Under the pieces are notes generated by a model. It worked only from the letters and a program-made list of their open reading frames with translations. It was not told where the DNA came from and did no database searches. A program made the position numbers and the translations under genes. Positions 782 through 16,983 of a DNA stretch of 35,025 nucleotides are shown here, one piece after another. Numbering within the stretch: the first letter of the stretch is position 1; every line of letters starts with the position of its first letter. Origin of the DNA: a virus; the IMG/VR virus record IMGVR_UViG_3300025168_000288, positions 1-35,025 of that record. One strand, written 5' to 3'.

Positions 782-923
782 GATGCTTGACAGATGGTTC
801 GATGACGAATCAAAGAAGATAGATAAGACCGAAGCAGTAACAAATGTAGAATTTGTTACAGGAAAGAAGAAGTCAAAAAATTCACTTAGTTCACTTTGGT
901 CAAAGTTATGGTCATCTAAGTGA
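768..923 (+). CDS. Small basic protein, 51 residues, with repeated LWSK ending
   Basis: A short gene starts at ATG 768 inside the end of the previous gene and stops at TGA 921-923. A ribosome binding site (GGAG at 755-758) lies nine bases upstream. The protein begins MTRCKMLDRWFDDESKK. It ends in a Ser/Lys/Trp-rich tail, SLSSLWSKLWSSK, which is a near-duplicate of the W-S-x-L-K motif found elsewhere in the window. The 3' end overlaps the first arm of a 12-bp inverted repeat (903-914), so the coding end and the control region are interleaved. No function can be assigned. Confidence 0.5.
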   Translation: MTRCKMLDRWFDDESKKIDKTEAVTNVEFVTGKKKSKNSLSSLWSKLWSSK

Positions 924-1074
924 CTACTACACTCTCTTATATTATAGAGAGTAGGACTATAATAAATTGACCATAACTTATAGTCAATTTAGTGACCACT
1001 TGTATGAATAAAGTGAATAAAGTGGTATAGTGAACATAGCGAAATGTTTATGTTGACCATTTTAGTGACCAACA
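897..1074 (+). promoter_or_regulatory. Repeat-rich control region with nested dyads and TGACC/GGTCA sites
   Basis: The only sizeable gap on this side of the window is 924-1074, and it is structured. A 12-bp perfect inverted repeat has arms at 903-914 (AAGTTATGGTCA) and 968-979 (TGACCATAACTT). Inside it lies a 7-bp hairpin, ACTCTCT 931-937 with AGAGAGT 946-952 and loop TATATTAT. A second dyad has 9-bp arms TAAATTGAC 963-971 and GTCAATTTA 983-991. TTGACCAT occurs at 967 and 1053, and TTTAGTGACCA at 988 and 1061. GGTCA/TGACC cores occur at least six times. An AT-rich ACTATAATAAAT at 957-968 could be a TATA box. I read this as promoter plus operators for the cassette starting at 1075. There is no T-run after the hairpin, so a simple terminator is less likely. 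Confidence 0.6.
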
Positions 1075-1611
1075 TTGAGCGACATGCAAGCAGGTAATGA
1101 TAACTCGGACGCAGAAATTCGTTTGATGGGGCTAATCTTAGCGCAATCAGCGTTAATTGGACTATCAGTTGGAGTATACGACGCAGGAATTTGGTTAAAC
1201 AATGACGACGCTATGGTGAATGGATTTACATACGCTATGGCTGGTTTCTTTGTTCAAGGTATTGCGTACTATTTCTTCAAGATGTTCTTTGAACAGAACA
1301 TGCAAGAGCGAGTACAGATACAAAATCAAGAGCGACAACGCCAACAACGTTATCGAAATACACAGTTAAACTTTGATAATCGTAGAGCCGATATGGAAAT
1401 GCGTATGCAAGAAGCACAACTTGAGCGTGAACTGCAATGGATGGAACAAAATCCCGGTAAGATGCCTCCTTCATGGGGAGTACAGGGGGGTTCAACTTCT
1501 ATGGTAACTCAATATGATGACAATATGTTGATTAAGAATCCACCAAAACATGAAGCCATTATTGACAAACCAATGCATCTTGGTGCTGTAGACGAAAAGA
1601 AAAATCAATGA
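1075..1611 (+). CDS. Membrane protein with two transmembrane helices and a coiled-coil tail
   Basis: The protein has about 178 residues. Two hydrophobic segments lie at roughly residues 17-41 (LMGLILAQSALIGLSVGV) and 52-72 (AMAGFFVQGIAYYFF). A long Gln/Arg/Glu-rich helix at about 75-125 is very likely a coiled coil. The tail carries a short GG-rich stretch. The start is either TTG 1075 or ATG 1084, and neither has a clear ribosome binding site, so the message may be nearly leaderless. It is the first gene after the repeat-rich control region, and a second membrane protein and an Arf-like GTPase follow. A membrane scaffold or effector partner of that GTPase is a reasonable guess, but nothing in the sequence proves it. 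Confidence 0.75.
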   Translation: MSDMQAGNDNSDAEIRLMGLILAQSALIGLSVGVYDAGIWLNNDDAMVNGFTYAMAGFFVQGIAYYFFKMFFEQNMQERVQIQNQERQRQQRYRNTQLNFDNRRADMEMRMQEAQLERELQWMEQNPGKMPPSWGVQGGSTSMVTQYDDNMLIKNPPKHEAIIDKPMHLGAVDEKKNQ

Positions 1612-1621
1612 AGGTGATTAA

Positions 1622-1876
1622 TTGGGGCGCATTTTTAAAACGCCAACGGACGATAGTACCGAAGCAACACTTCGGGCTATGCATACTCAAAACACATTAG
1701 ACAATTATTACGAGAAGGGATGGGGATGGTTTCGTACATTTTTATTCACATTTATCGCTATTTTAGGAACAAGTCTTTGGGAAAAAAGTACTGATGTATC
1801 TGTTTGGGATAACACAATAGAGTGGTTTGTATTGAAAATAGAAGCATTTGGTAATTGGTTACTGGAGTTGTTCTAA
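1622..1876 (+). CDS. Small single-pass membrane protein, TTG start
   Basis: The start TTG 1622 is supported by AGGTGAT at 1612-1618, the same signal that precedes many ATG starts here. The 84 residues hold one clear transmembrane helix at about 35-52 (FRTFLFTFIAILGTSLW) and a C-terminal amphipathic Trp-rich helix ending in NWLLELF. The stop TAA overlaps the ATG of the GTPase gene as TAATG, which suggests translational coupling. No family is recognised. Together with the preceding gene it forms a membrane-protein pair directly ahead of a GTPase. Confidence 0.7.
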   Translation: MGRIFKTPTDDSTEATLRAMHTQNTLDNYYEKGWGWFRTFLFTFIAILGTSLWEKSTDVSVWDNTIEWFVLKIEAFGNWLLELF

Positions 1877-2592
1877 TGGTTGACCCCGCAGGTTCCGCAT
1901 TGGTTGGTGTTATGGTATGGGGTCAATCTCTATACAACTCATGGCGACCTCGACGTGTGGGAATATATGGTGCAGGGCAAGTTGGTAAAACAACGCTTGA
2001 CCGTTACATGACTACTCCCGGTGAAATGGAAGAAATTCCCGATGCTGAACGTACAGACCACAAAAAATTTCTTGGTAAGTACAACATGCCAAAGCCATCA
2101 CGAAAAAGAGTTTCTTGGAAAGGGCATAAACGTGTAGTGTACTCTTCTGATGTTGGAGGTCAAGAACGATTTTGGAATTTATGGATTGATGATATGGTCA
2201 ATCGACAAGTTGAAGCAGTTGTCTATATGTTTGACGAAAGAGCATTCAAAGGTGGAGATGACGCAATAAAACAAATTGGTGGTTTTAAGTATCTTGTAGA
2301 TGCTATACTTCATAGACAATATCGTTATCGAAATTTTAAGGCTCGGCGTAAAGGAAAGAAGTACGTTCCAAAACTCATTATGCTTGTTGCAAATAAAGCA
2401 GACAGATTTTTTGATGACACAGCCGCCATGCTTTGGCAACAAGACCGTATAGGAGAACATAAGGTATTCGACCCATTCCGAGATGATTTAATACGCTTAC
2501 AAAAAGGTGGTATACCAACAAGAAGGTCTTTTATGGCGACTCGTATTGGATGGAATGTAGAAAACACAATGGTCGATTTACTTACAGCATAG
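1876..2592 (+). CDS. Arf-like small GTPase
   Basis: This is a 238-residue P-loop GTPase of the Arf/Ras superfamily. Visible motifs are G1 GAGQVGKTT at residues 32-40, G3 DVGGQER at 92-98, G4 NKAD at 173-176, and a G5-like MATR at 220-223 followed by GWNVE. DxGGQ followed by an LW pair is the Arf/G-alpha style rather than the Ras style (DTAGQE). The switch I threonine is not obvious; T60 is a candidate. The N-terminus has a hydrophobic stretch (residues 6-20) that could act as a membrane-associating helix. A basic insert (about 150-162, RYRNFKARRKGKK) precedes G4. The start ATG overlaps the stop of the preceding membrane-protein gene, with GGAG upstream. It should bind and hydrolyse GTP as a switch, probably at a membrane. 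The role in infection is unknown. Confidence 0.9.
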   Translation: MVDPAGSALVGVMVWGQSLYNSWRPRRVGIYGAGQVGKTTLDRYMTTPGEMEEIPDAERTDHKKFLGKYNMPKPSRKRVSWKGHKRVVYSSDVGGQERFWNLWIDDMVNRQVEAVVYMFDERAFKGGDDAIKQIGGFKYLVDAILHRQYRYRNFKARRKGKKYVPKLIMLVANKADRFFDDTAAMLWQQDRIGEHKVFDPFRDDLIRLQKGGIPTRRSFMATRIGWNVENTMVDLLTA

Positions 2593-2600
2593 GTGATACA

Positions 2601-2777
2601 ATGACAAAAACAACAGTTACATCAGTAGGAAAACACAGTAAAAGCCTAAGATGCGTTATACCGCATTGGATAGTAGAAATGATGGAAATTTCAAAAAGTG
2701 ATTCATTAGTATGGAGCATCGAATGGGATTCAGAAACAGGAGAGCGACAAATTATGATAAATAAGGTGATAGAATGA
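2601..2777 (+). CDS. AbrB-type small DNA-binding protein
   Basis: A 58-residue protein starts at ATG 2601, four bases after AGGTGAT (2591-2597). Its pattern VGKHSKSLRCVIPHWIVEMM, then SKSDSLVWSIEWD, then a closing beta strand (RQIMINKVI), matches the swapped-hairpin AbrB/SpoVT fold: a K-x-S strand, the conserved IP turn, a helix, a K-x-D turn and the final strands. Such proteins dimerise and bind AT-rich operator DNA, often as transition regulators. It could act on the dyad-rich region at 897-1074, but that is inference. Its stop overlaps the next start (ATGA). Confidence 0.75.
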   Translation: MTKTTVTSVGKHSKSLRCVIPHWIVEMMEISKSDSLVWSIEWDSETGERQIMINKVIE

Positions 2778-10915: not shown

Positions 10916-12397
10916 ATGGAAGGCGACATCAATGAATTTATCCACGATATGGATAAACAGATGTCTGCAAAGTCTTTTCGATACTTCTTTGAGGACATAT
11001 TAGGATTTGATTATTCGCACCACCATGAAAGTTGGGACAAAGGATTAGCAGAAAACAAATATTACTGTGTTAAAGCGAGTCGTGACCACGGTAAGTCTGT
11101 ATTCTTTATGTCCTATGCTCTATGGATAGCGGCATTTAAGCCCGGAACACACGTCATGATTTTCTCTCACTCTTTGGAACAAACATTGGAACACATGAGA
11201 TTTATTCGCAATAACATTGAATCCACACCAATCCTTCGTGAACTTATTCCAGAAGGAAGGCCGTGGAGAAAAACATACTTCGAGTTTGAGAACGGAAGCC
11301 GAATGATGGCTAAGTCCGTTGGTGGTGGTACTCGTGGTTTCCACCCTCACGTTGTAGTATGCGACGATATTCTATGGGGTACAACAGGTACAGAATTACA
11401 GCGAGCCGCTGATTGGTTCTATGGTGTTCTTCTCCCTGTTCTGCACCACACAGGTCGTATGATGATTGTCGGTACGCCGTTTTCATACAACGATTTGTAC
11501 GCTGAATTAGAACAAAGAGATGCCTTTACTGTCGAGACATATCCGGCAATAGATGCCGCTGGAGAAGCCCTTTGGCCTGAACGATGGAATCTTGAAACAC
11601 TCGACCAACGTAGACTTTCAATGCCAGCGATACAATTTTCTCGTGAGTATCTTTGTGAGCCTATTCACGACGTTGCGAGTATGTTCCCTAACGATATTCT
11701 CGACAAAGCCCGTGATAAAGACCTTGTATTACTCGACAGGGCTGATACTGAATTTGATGAGAATGGTAATCCCGCAGGTGTATTCGGTCAACACTTCATA
11801 GGATGGGACACAGCAATTGCTTCGGATAAGAACGCTGATTATACAGCAATGATTGTTATGCGTACTTTACCAGATGACCATACCAAACAAATTGTTGGTG
11901 TTATACATGAAAAAGGATTAGGTGGTGCGGCTCAAAAGAAACACATTTTGATGCTTAACAATCGGTTTCAACCTGATTTGATTGAACTTGAAGGTAACAA
12001 CTTCCAGCGTATGTTCGCCGCTGAACTGCAAGATATGCGTAGCGATATACCGATTAAAACATTTATGACTACTCGACAAAGAAAAGAGAGTATATTCATG
12101 TCTTTACTTATGGCATTTGAACAAGGGCAGATTAGAACACCGTATGGTGATGAACGAAGCCGTACTTTCACACATAAATTAGAACAAGAACTAAACCGAT
12201 TCGGAATGCAAAAGAACGGTAAGTTAGAATCTGTAGGTACTCACGATGACTTGGCAATGGCTTTGGCTTTGGCTAATTGGGGTACAAAAGAGTTCAAGGG
12301 AAGCATTGTTTCACTCGATGATTACATGCCCGGATTTGGTGATTGGCTTGACAATACTGTTGGTGGTAAGAACACAGGCGGGTGGATTATACCATGA
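10916..12397 (+). CDS. terL: Terminase large subunit (TerL)
   Basis: The 493-residue DNA-packaging motor has both expected domains. In the ATPase domain, Walker A is ASRDHGKS (54-61), Walker B is VVVCDDI (146-152) and the coupling motif is IVGTPF. In the nuclease domain, FIGWDTA gives the first acidic residue, LIELEGNN the second and THDDLAMALA the third, as in RNase H-like terminase nucleases. It drives ATP-powered DNA translocation through the portal and cuts the DNA. The start at ATG 10916 has no close ribosome binding site; GGAAGTGAT lies 16 bases or more upstream. An in-frame ATA or ATT nearer that site is possible. The stop overlaps the next gene as ATGA. Confidence 0.95.
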   Translation: MEGDINEFIHDMDKQMSAKSFRYFFEDILGFDYSHHHESWDKGLAENKYYCVKASRDHGKSVFFMSYALWIAAFKPGTHVMIFSHSLEQTLEHMRFIRNNIESTPILRELIPEGRPWRKTYFEFENGSRMMAKSVGGGTRGFHPHVVVCDDILWGTTGTELQRAADWFYGVLLPVLHHTGRMMIVGTPFSYNDLYAELEQRDAFTVETYPAIDAAGEALWPERWNLETLDQRRLSMPAIQFSREYLCEPIHDVASMFPNDILDKARDKDLVLLDRADTEFDENGNPAGVFGQHFIGWDTAIASDKNADYTAMIVMRTLPDDHTKQIVGVIHEKGLGGAAQKKHILMLNNRFQPDLIELEGNNFQRMFAAELQDMRSDIPIKTFMTTRQRKESIFMSLLMAFEQGQIRTPYGDERSRTFTHKLEQELNRFGMQKNGKLESVGTHDDLAMALALANWGTKEFKGSIVSLDDYMPGFGDWLDNTVGGKNTGGWIIP

Positions 12398-13833: not shown

Positions 13834-13873
13834 TGTAAGAACAATTAAATGAGTGGTCAACGGAGAGGTCAAT

Positions 13874-15175
13874 ATGTGGGGGAGTGCATTTGTCGGGGAT
13901 GAGTATGATTTCCCCGTTTTAGGAAACGATGAGTTTTCTAATTTACTTGTCAAAAGTATATCACAGCACCCACAATTTCAATATGATAATCTACCTATTG
14001 AACCAGTAAGTTCATCTTTAGTTGTTAAAGAGGAATTAAAATCATATTCATTTGCTAAGAATGGAGATGGTTGGCTCGAATCCACATGGGGAAAGAGTGC
14101 TGACCAAATTATACGTGAATGTCGTAAAGCCCGTAGAAACGATAAATCCAATAGAGATATGTATGATTCTATGATTAAAGATGTTAGAACATTAAAATCA
14201 ATGGAAGTAGAAGCCACTATTACCAATTTGTCTTGGTCTGATGGTCTTTCTGATGTCATAAAGAATATGGGTATAAACGATAAAGCGTTAAAATCACTAC
14301 GAAAGTTTGGAGAATCACGTTCAATAAGTTTACAAAAAGCCTGTCAATTATTCTTGAAAGCAAATACTGTATTGAATATGCTTAATGAAAAAGTTGACTG
14401 GAATGTTGATGACCAATTAGAATGGGTCAATGCAAATCAATTACAAAAAGACGCAAGAAAAATGTGGAGAAATGTATTGAAGCAAGCAGAAAAATTACCT
14501 GTTAATGATGTTAAAGCATTAGAATTTGCATCTGATGTATTGGAAAAAGAAGGTCCTTTACAATCTCGTGAACTCGTAAGACGTGGACTGGGTACATTAG
14601 AAAAGAACATAACTCCTCAAAAGATGGCATCTTTACTCAAAACATACGGGGAAGAATTTGATATTTACAAAGCCCCGTCGAGAGGGAATTACATTAAAAT
14701 TGGTACGCATGGGTTAATTATCAAAGACATATGGGGGTACATGGCCGGTTCACTTGATTCAGATGGAAGCATCTTTATTTCACAACGTGGCGACCCTCGT
14801 GTAACCTTCGTTGCCAGTGGAAATATGGGTAAGCAGTTGTGTGAAGATTTGCAAAAGGCTGTTGGCTGTGGTCGATTAGTTACTGACCAAACAGTAGCAA
14901 AGAATACACAAAAAACTATTCATCGGCTCATATTTGCATCGAAGGATGATATTCGCCATGTTCTCAAACATTCCATGCCTCATATGCGTCTAAAAGACTT
15001 GCAAGCAAAGGCTATGCTTGCTTATGTAGATGAAAAAGATAAGATGAGAAAGACTGAATTATATCAGTTAGTTACATTCAGTAATTGGAAAGACCATAAA
15101 AACAAAGCCGACTCTCTCTTGAACAAGTGGGGCGTTGATGCTGACACTATAGGCGCATTTGCGGAGGGATTGTAA
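13874..15175 (+). CDS. Protein with winged helix and LAGLIDADG-like domain
   Basis: ATG 13874 follows GGAGAGG at 13862-13868; an in-frame GTG at 13853 is less supported. The product has about 433 residues. The first ~200 are unrecognised and charged. Residues ~215-280 look like a winged helix (EFASDVLEKEGPLQSRELVR, then a beta wing). The LAGLIDADG-like motif MAGSLDSDG lies at 290-298 and is followed by the usual strand-turn pattern (SIFISQR, RVTFVASGN), a helix, and GCGRLV. One motif is present, so a homodimer or a domesticated DNA-binding protein is likely. Both acidic positions of SLDSDG are kept. It is not inside another gene's frame, so it does not look like a free-standing homing-intron product. 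Its place between TerL and portal is unusual. Confidence 0.75.
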   Translation: MWGSAFVGDEYDFPVLGNDEFSNLLVKSISQHPQFQYDNLPIEPVSSSLVVKEELKSYSFAKNGDGWLESTWGKSADQIIRECRKARRNDKSNRDMYDSMIKDVRTLKSMEVEATITNLSWSDGLSDVIKNMGINDKALKSLRKFGESRSISLQKACQLFLKANTVLNMLNEKVDWNVDDQLEWVNANQLQKDARKMWRNVLKQAEKLPVNDVKALEFASDVLEKEGPLQSRELVRRGLGTLEKNITPQKMASLLKTYGEEFDIYKAPSRGNYIKIGTHGLIIKDIWGYMAGSLDSDGSIFISQRGDPRVTFVASGNMGKQLCEDLQKAVGCGRLVTDQTVAKNTQKTIHRLIFASKDDIRHVLKHSMPHMRLKDLQAKAMLAYVDEKDKMRKTELYQLVTFSNWKDHKNKADSLLNKWGVDADTIGAFAEGL

Positions 15176-15207: not shown

Positions 15208-16983
15208 TTGTCGGCTTTAGGTCGGCCTTTCAAAAGAAAGGAAAGCCCAACTCCAACAATGCCACTTTGGTCAAGTGGTATTCAAGAACCTGTTATGGCT
15301 CAAGGTATTACTATACCTGCTCTTTTTGCTGTAAGTACTGAATCACTTATTCTTCGTACTGTACTTTCTAAATTACGACAAGAAATGTTTCGTCGTGGTT
15401 TTTATTGGGAAAAGAAGTTTACTGCAAAATGTACTCAATGTGATGAAGAATATCAAGAAGAAGTTGAAACTTGTAAATTATGCGGTGGTACAACTCGAAA
15501 ACCTGATATTGATGAAATCACTTATCCTAAGTGGTTACTAAAACAAGAAAACAGTATGGAACAATCATTCTTCCATCTTTTACATGAACTTGAAAGTGAT
15601 TTGAATATTGTAGATGATGGCTTCCTTGTATTAATAAAAGAATATTTTATTGACCCTGAAACGAAAGAAGTTCAGTTTTATCGTGTTAAAGAAATGATAC
15701 GAGGCGACCCTATCTTTATGCGAATCGTTGCTGATAAGCGTGGAGTACGTGGTGGACGTTACAAAATTTGTTTAGTGCATCGAGAAAATGTAAAGACACA
15801 TTCTGAAAGTGATAAATGTGAAATTTGTGGAAGTGAAATGCAAGATGTTCACTACGTGAATATGGCTGGAAGTGGTAAGACACAATACTTTGTTGAAGGG
15901 GAAGTACTGCACATTTCAAAATATAATCCATCGAAATTGTATGGTCGTTCTCCAGTTAACACAATGTGGAGACAAGCAATGACACTCACAGCAATGGATA
16001 ACTACATCTATACTGCTTACCAAAAGAGAAGAATTCCAAAGGGTATTATTTCTGTTACAACAGATAACTTAGAATCAATGAAGTCATTTTGGAAGGCAAC
16101 TGATGAAAAAATGGAACGTGACCCTCACTATATTCCTCGTGTTGGTATCGAATCTTCGAGTGGAAGAGGAGGGGTCAATTGGGTCAAATTTATGGACACA
16201 CTTGAAGAAATGCAATACATCGGTGTACGTGATGAAATACGAAATCGTATAGCCGCTTTCTATGGTGTATCGTCTATCTTTATGGTTGACAATGGTAAAT
16301 CAGGAGGTCTGAATAATGAAGGACTACAAATTCTTGTTACTAATCGTGCTGTAGAATTTGGTCAAAAAGTATACACAGAAATTCTCTTCCCAAGACTACT
16401 AAAGCAAATGAATGTTAGTGATTGGAAACTCACGCTCTATCCTAATGAAGAAGAAGATGAAATTACTCGACTTCGTAGAGATGAACAAGAACTTAACGTT
16501 GCACAAAGAATGGCACAATTAGGATTTGTACCTGACTTACTCGATGAGCCAGCAAATCGAGACATCCGTTTCACATATTCTAAACCACCACCAGCACCAG
16601 CACCACCTCCCGGTGGCGCACCACCCGGAGGAATGCCACCCGGTGGTGGAGGAATGCCACCTATGATGCCACCCGGTGGAATGCCACCCGGTGGAATGCC
16701 ACCACAGATGATGGGAAGAGGCGGAATGCCAATGCCACCACAGATGGGTGGAGGTATGCCAATGCCAATGTCAAGACAAGTTCCACCCGGTATGGGAATG
16801 CCTATGCAACCCGGAAGTGAAGGAATGGGAATGAGAAATCGTGGTCCTGTAGCACCACAAAGAAGAGGAACAATGGGAAGTGGTTCACCACTTTCAAGTG
16901 TTCAACAAAGAGGACCACCACCATCTCCTATGCAGAACGTTTCTAATACATTATTAGACGCTCGTAGACCAAGAGGCCGCTAA
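15208..16983 (+). CDS. Portal protein with two zinc-ribbon insertions
   Basis: Portals form the dodecameric ring for DNA entry and exit at one capsid vertex. This protein fits by location and by its core: YGRSPVNTMWRQAMTL, then RRIPKGIIS, a long helical stem and the IAAFYGVSSIFM segment. Two Cys clusters are inserted: C75-x2-C78 with C89-x2-C92, and a C-x-x-H with C-x2-C about 120 residues later. The C-terminal ~120 residues are Pro/Gly/Met repeats (PPGGMPPGGGGMPP). The nearest standard start is TTG 15208, but it has no ribosome binding site. GGAGGG at 15163-15168 points instead to ATC 15175, which overlaps the previous stop like the TAATG junctions elsewhere and would add 11 residues. Confidence 0.85.
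   Translation: MSALGRPFKRKESPTPTMPLWSSGIQEPVMAQGITIPALFAVSTESLILRTVLSKLRQEMFRRGFYWEKKFTAKCTQCDEEYQEEVETCKLCGGTTRKPDIDEITYPKWLLKQENSMEQSFFHLLHELESDLNIVDDGFLVLIKEYFIDPETKEVQFYRVKEMIRGDPIFMRIVADKRGVRGGRYKICLVHRENVKTHSESDKCEICGSEMQDVHYVNMAGSGKTQYFVEGEVLHISKYNPSKLYGRSPVNTMWRQAMTLTAMDNYIYTAYQKRRIPKGIISVTTDNLESMKSFWKATDEKMERDPHYIPRVGIESSSGRGGVNWVKFMDTLEEMQYIGVRDEIRNRIAAFYGVSSIFMVDNGKSGGLNNEGLQILVTNRAVEFGQKVYTEILFPRLLKQMNVSDWKLTLYPNEEEDEITRLRRDEQELNVAQRMAQLGFVPDLLDEPANRDIRFTYSKPPPAPAPPPGGAPPGGMPPGGGGMPPMMPPGGMPPGGMPPQMMGRGGMPMPPQMGGGMPMPMSRQVPPGMGMPMQPGSEGMGMRNRGPVAPQRRGTMGSGSPLSSVQQRGPPPSPMQNVSNTLLDARRPRGR

Follow-up and report, generated by a model that had tools for sequence, protein, structure and literature searches.

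In lambdoid phages, the operators OL and OR are clusters of repressor sites at two opposite promoters, and all sites of one phage are alike, those of different immunity types being different. Iteron-type replication origins, among them those of F (RepE) and P1 (RepA) and the herpesvirus oriS and oriL, have repeated initiator sites with origin-specific units beside an AT-rich stretch; in herpesvirus oriS, inverted sites flank an AT core. In archaeal operators of the LrpA/Ptr2 type, the sites lie directly against BRE/TATA at a fixed distance.

The Magrovirales (Apasviridae), viruses of Poseidoniales according to their ICTV description, are tailed archaeal viruses of 90-110 kb with a PolB replisome, whose morphogenetic and replication modules are transcribed in opposite directions (PMC12999244). 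Their ICTV profile reports no integrase, predicts a lytic lifestyle and describes no origin, operator or promoter element (PMC12999244). Here we describe a mirror-image array of short units, element A, that abuts a putative core promoter, element B, in viruses that fit this description, and that recurs about 9 kb away beside an oppositely oriented promoter. Such arrays are of a known kind; the architecture of element A appears to be undescribed.

The virus and its relatives

The stretch analysed here (the window) is an entire IMG/VR virus record of 35,025 bp, classed as linear, and is probably a fragment of a larger virus genome. It carries a terminase (PF17289), and its major capsid protein, of SU10/HK97 type (Pfam, PHROG), is 33-36% identical to the Druskaviridae capsids of HVTV-1 and HCTV. 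Related records reach up to 115 kb; a family-B polymerase (PolB) was found in 12 of 14 of them, and their modules lie on opposite strands. The window and its relatives fit the description of the Magrovirales, to which, with Poseidoniales as hosts, we assign them provisionally because no named magrovirus matched; the hosts of these tailed viruses are probably marine archaea. When genome contigs were searched for a host with the viral GTPase, only two bacterial MAG contigs were found, from a Maricaulis MAG (L299) and a Cytophagaceae MAG (L300), and both are probably misbinned virus contigs.

Relatives were fetched through the GTPase (80 loci) and through the membrane protein that is first in the operon (55 loci). 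Loci carrying the second copy of element A were fetched through a gene for an HMGL-like lyase (PF00682, E=3e-19 in G002). In these viruses the gene (L153:14039-14872, plus strand; homologues in L165, L206, L211 and L219) is kept at an identity of about 54-64% and is a candidate auxiliary metabolic gene.

The features of the window are collected in Table 1. The short ORF at its left had no match in Pfam or PHROG, and the first gene of the operon had only a weak DUF350 match in Pfam; the GTPase motifs read by eye are G1 GAGQVGKT, G3 DVGGQ and G4 NKAD. Several proteins share an N-terminal motif resembling M(T/S)PxxxAWxLLK, encoded between the two copies of element A in G002, G007, G012, G017 and G019 and at 242-781 in the window, which is perhaps a shared virion-targeting or processing signal.

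Table 1. Coordinates of the features in the window.
Feature	Position	Strand	Details
Short ORF, 54 aa	759..923	+	Last codons encode the left arm
Element A, whole	880-1027		Mirror-image arm pair around an AT-rich dyad
Element A, left arm	880..923	+	TCA at 882, 891, 900 and 912 (9-9-12); inverted TGA at 921
Element A, centre	924..983	.	AT-rich dyad; hairpin ACTCTCT-N8-AGAGAGT at 931-952; repeats at 955-979
Element A, right arm	984..1027	-	Units at 1025 (degenerate), 1016, 1007 and 995; inverted unit at 984-986
Element B	1038..1072	+	BRE-like AGCGAAA at 1038-1044; TATA-like TTTATG at 1047-1052; TGACC at 1054 and 1066
First gene of the element-B operon, probable membrane protein, 175 aa	1084..1611	+	55 viral relatives
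Small Ras/Roc-like GTPase	1876..2592	+	PF08477 E=0.008, below cut-off; motifs by eye
AbrB/MazE-like small protein	2601..2777	+	SLRTVIPxW motif, by eye only
Second element-B site	13855..13871	+	GGTCA-N7-GGTCA between a TTAAAT box and the ATG at 13874

Architecture and spacing of element A

A preliminary description of the window had listed nested repeats ahead of the GTPase operon. The 12-bp arms at 903-914 and 968-979 were recovered as a perfect pair, the dyad at 963-991 with 14-bp arms at 93%, and the direct repeats TTGACCAT at 967 and 1053 and TTTAGTGACCA at 988 and 1061; the 7-bp hairpin ACTCTCT/AGAGAGT (931-952) was read directly in the sequence. The TGACC/GGTCA cores, given as at least six, number exactly six (898, 910, 968, 993, 1054 and 1066) and form the densest 185-bp stretch of the window, the expectation being 0.44 per 178 bp. 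The first arm lies within a coding end, as had been said: the left arm of element A overlaps the 3' end of the short ORF, whose stop codon (TGA, 921-923) is the inverted TGA of the arm. The inverted-repeat score of the region was 16.0, against 9.1 +/- 1.6 (maximum 15.1) in 60 dinucleotide shuffles, and it ranks second among the inverted repeats of the whole window; the equivalent region ranks first or second in five related genomes (G001, G002, G006, G007 and G009) and fourth in G011.

Behind these repeats stands a larger design, of which they are the part that shows. The expectation that dyads would be kept among relatives while spacers drift failed for the dyads originally named and held for a deeper architecture: among close relatives, only the near-identical L088 has the 931-952 hairpin and the 12-bp arms in exact form, while the unit positions and a central dyad are kept. 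In each arm, TCA-type direct units stand at 0, 9, 18 and 30 bp and an inverted TGA at 39/40 bp; the right arm mirrors the left, with extra outer units reaching to about 1042. It is this 9-9-12 spacing and the mirror symmetry, not the exact repeat sequence, that are conserved. A central dyad of the form CTACTCTC..ATATAATA..GAGAGTAG is kept in many relatives, and in the long ones the AT content of the centre at this position is in the top 1-2%.

A histogram of TCA pair distances in the region peaked at 9 (49 counts), 12 (29), 21 (27) and 18 (15). With a spacing rule requiring at least three of the four TCAs plus the TGA, the 35-kb window yielded only two matches, one forward (the left arm) and one reverse (the right arm), and stray matches elsewhere came to 0.005 per 240-bp region (22 records). 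Across 208 loci (2.37 Mb), most of which contributed to the derivation of the rule or closely resemble contributors, it found 30 distinct inward-facing pairs, every one at copy 1 or copy 2 of the element (see below), and no outward-facing pair; L014, L015 and L016 played no part in deriving the rule, yet fit it. Three viruses of the TTGTC type (G011, G028 and G029) escape the strict TCA form, as does one arm of G022.

Viruses more distantly related to the window have different-looking DNA before the homologous gene. Many of the more distant relatives L118-L139 carry, preceding their homologue of gene 1084..1611, a hairpin, GGGTCGGAGG..CCGACCC, with a CCCTCTC that is complementary to GAGAGGG just ahead of the start of the next gene; this hairpin is possibly an RNA-based control.

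Element B and the position of the putative promoter

Comparison of the upstream DNA separated a conserved part, element B, from a fast-changing part, element A. Element B (a BRE-like GCGAAA, a TATA box and two TGACC 12 bp apart, its TGACCA repeat having a 12-bp period) is conserved in closer relatives and was the top position-weight match in each of seven genomes scanned whole. Judged from its sequence, it is a putative core promoter with predicted transcription starts downstream of the arms.

The right arm of copy 1 stands 3, 6, 16 or 20 bp from the TATA box of element B in 18/18 records, the wider gaps, of 16-20 bp, being occupied by additional outer units. The repeated sites thus hold a fixed position relative to BRE/TATA, as in archaeal multi-site operators. 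The preliminary description had proposed a multi-site operator ahead of the GTPase operon, possibly read by the nearby AbrB-type protein; the operator part agrees with these fixed gaps, and the anatomy of element A points to a protein-binding array.

A second element-B site, in the opposite orientation to the first, was detected in the window by the position-weight scan (Table 1). The distance downstream from the gene of copy 1 to this site is 9.9-13.0 kb, and 20 of 21 other records have it in recognisable form; the sole exception, G029, gave no convincing match. The gene behind it (13874-15175) appears by eye to encode a winged-helix-like part and a LAGLIDADG-like part. It had no significant Pfam match and a weak endonuclease-type match in PHROG (E=1.4e-4), and its product is possibly a regulator of its own promoter.

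A second copy with a genome-specific unit

The unit of element A varies by virus; examples are TTCACTTT, GTTCACTTT, CCTCACTT, TAGTCAT, TTGTCAT, TTATCAT and TTGTCC. Both arms of one virus have a common unit, and mostly a common dyad spacer of 6 or 7 bp. When the region was compared with its own genome by BLASTN, a second copy was found 8.3-9.5 kb upstream in G007, G011, G012, G017, G019 and G025, and that of G002 was recognised by a short match and then read directly. Copy 2 is present in 7/7 records that extend far enough; in most others it is not visible because those records begin too close to copy 1. The spacing rule is satisfied by copy 2 in 6/7 records, and copy 2 of G011 is of the TTGTC type. 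A third, weaker TTGTC-type array lies in G011 at 15987-16097 of the oriented record, upstream of a minus-strand gene.

Architecture and unit are the same in copy 2 as in copy 1 in G002, G007, G012, G017, G019 and G025, and the two copies of G019 agree in every letter of a 35-bp unit string. Across six genomes, the arms of copy 2 paired best with copy 1 of their own genome, this pairing being the best of 720 permutations, with the own genome as best match in 4/6 rows of the comparison. The unit is thus common to two regions of a genome and different between genomes, as in lambdoid phages, and the matching of the copies within a genome speaks for a factor acting in trans rather than for purely local causes.

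The second copy bears on several other accounts of the symmetry. In one, the arms have no function and are a by-product of mutation: when quasi-palindromes are corrected by template switching, two arms close together can become alike. This leaves unexplained a unit common to sites 9 kb apart, a 9-9-12 spacing that stays fixed while the units differ widely, and the lack of outward-facing pairs. Contradicted by the distant copy, local correction of this kind is scarcely conceivable as an explanation.

Base pairing in a structured RNA, either a leader or a 3' UTR hairpin, could likewise account for inverted repeats that are strong, among the best in several genomes, and whose arms change together between viruses. 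Pairing requires neither direct 9/9/12-bp repetition within an arm nor a match to a copy 9 kb away, the place of the core promoter would put the arms ahead of the transcription start, and Rfam returned no match for element A beyond sub-threshold chance matches; we consider an RNA extremely unlikely.

Two widely spaced copies per genome would also be compatible with a site for another process, namely a partition centromere, a start of packaging or the organisation of virion DNA. Plasmid R1 parC consists of two clusters of short repeats around a promoter, which element A resembles. An unsystematic look near the arrays noticed no partition genes, the terminase lies about 10 kb from copy 1, and the lytic lifestyle predicted for the Apasviridae, with no integrase reported (PMC12999244), also argues against such a site, which we regard as very unlikely. 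The recombination site that the preliminary description had allowed for has no support, because each genome has the arrays twice, in a layout common to the whole lineage.

Strand switch and GC skew at copy 2

Copy 2 lies at a strand switch, next to the promoter of the replication operon, which runs in the opposite direction; the first large gene of this operon encodes an SNF2-type helicase (3/3 records tested). This leftward promoter has the form CGATGGACTGA..TATTTAAA in several records, and the distance from copy 2 to its TATA box varies. The site therefore recurs at more than one promoter, as operators do. On balance, sequence comparison leads us to favour element A as a multi-site operator that would head both divergent transcription units, because the array is locked to its promoter in all 18 records.

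In six long records (G025 being too short), copy 2 is at most 0.5 kb from the cumulative GC-skew minimum in G007, G011 and G019 and 3-7 kb from it in G002, G012 and G017. Copy 1 is never at the minimum, and the skew check for an origin proposed in the preliminary description showed no switch at the noted repeats. The skew is weak evidence because it also follows gene strand in these genomes.

These positions bear on a further reading, in which element A is an iteron-type replication origin present in two copies: an initiator would bind the mirror arrays and melt the AT-rich dyad, and promoter effects would be secondary autoregulation. Inverted arrays do flank a conserved, AT-rich central dyad, and directly repeated units lie beside an AT-rich segment, as in iterons; the genome-specific units common to both copies resemble iteron/initiator specificity groups, and copy 2 lies at a strand switch by a helicase-headed operon and, in three genomes, close to the skew minimum. 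Against an origin stand the distance of 3-7 kb from the minimum in the other three genomes, the position of copy 1 away from any minimum, the lock of the right arm to the TATA box in 18/18 records and the number of copies, since two, and three in G011, exceed the need of one origin. We regard an origin of this kind as possible but doubtful. Operator and origin roles can coincide; that the paired arrays are replication origins with a linked switch, at which an initiator of unknown family would read 9-9-12 half-sites with a specificity that changes rapidly between close relatives, seems to us unlikely.

Candidate reader proteins

The AbrB-like protein probably does not read element A, since it stays almost unchanged between viruses with different units: its N-terminus is near-identical in L101 (TTATCAT), L103/L105 (TAGTCAT) and L110 (TTGTCAT). 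It had no Pfam match, AbrB included. This part of the original proposal is not supported for the main array; the protein could possibly read the TGACC promoter repeat of element B. Proteins of the RHH_1 family (PF01402), the only ribbon-helix-helix family searched, were not found in 24 records, with positive controls.

Immediately to the right of copy 2, all seven records have a gene for a protein of 250-360 aa, U300, which is also found beside array-like repeats in some distant relatives (L252, L270 and L279), a kinship of these repeats to element A being suggestive only. U300 had no match in Pfam or PHROG, and single-protein scans returned almost only the queries. Its AlphaFold model is good (pLDDT 88.8), with no Foldseek match at E<=0.001 in PDB or BFVD and a best VIA Z of 3.9, to the C-terminal region of T4 endonuclease VII; nothing can be inferred about its function from these results. 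U300 was set aside as a reader, as its variation did not follow that of the unit (rank 50 of 53, in six genomes only).

Between copy 2 and U300 lies a conserved stretch (G007, L153 about 12130-12330; equivalents in G002, G012, G017, G019 and G025) that contains GAGTCCAACCCATATGGGTGCG and an inner hairpin. It is apparently structured, with compensatory changes seemingly present. Rfam gave no match at the gathering threshold and none convincing at E<=5, and the stretch is possibly a new viral non-coding RNA.

Discussion

We propose that a virus-specific DNA-binding protein would bind element A cooperatively, through two mirror arms around an AT-rich dyad. Copy 1, against element B, would govern the GTPase/structural operon, and copy 2, about 9 kb upstream, the replication operon. 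The array-binding protein may then toggle between the two divergent modules or hold them in balance, in the manner of the repressor sites at lambdoid early promoters. The 12-bp-period TGACC repeat of element B would form a second operator, common to one other promoter of the window.

The site changes rapidly, and in step between the two copies, which suggests that its specificity is under selection, for instance through superinfection exclusion or the compatibility of viruses that infect a cell together. If the origin reading were true, mutually incompatible origin types would exist among abundant marine archaeal viruses. In the part of the literature covered, we found no origin or regulatory region described for these viruses, which are known from metagenomes only. 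The spacing rule finds the element in megabases of DNA without false pairs and so offers two control regions per genome as a concrete target, and the natural series of specificity variants should be useful for finding the reader protein.

The closest likenesses can be set out in turn. The viruses themselves resemble the Magrovirales in being tailed, probably archaeal viruses, with PolB in most of the related records and modules on opposite strands; the arrays and promoter elements found here are absent from the Magrovirales profile (PMC12999244). Like lambdoid OL and OR, element A has site clusters at two opposite promoters and a unit particular to each virus. It differs in that its units are short (about 7-9 bp), in a 9-9-12 direct repeat mirrored around an AT-rich dyad, that no repressor gene was recognised between the copies, and that the viruses are predicted to be lytic. 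With iteron origins it shares repeated sites by an AT-rich stretch, genome-specific units and inverted sites around an AT core, but its period is 9 bp, not about 20 bp, there are two or three copies per genome, one of them locked to the structural-operon promoter, and no initiator was identified. As in operators of the LrpA/Ptr2 type, its sites lie directly against BRE/TATA at a fixed distance; unlike these, element A is far larger and symmetrical (about 110-265 bp), and a putative second, direct-repeat operator lies downstream of the TATA box.
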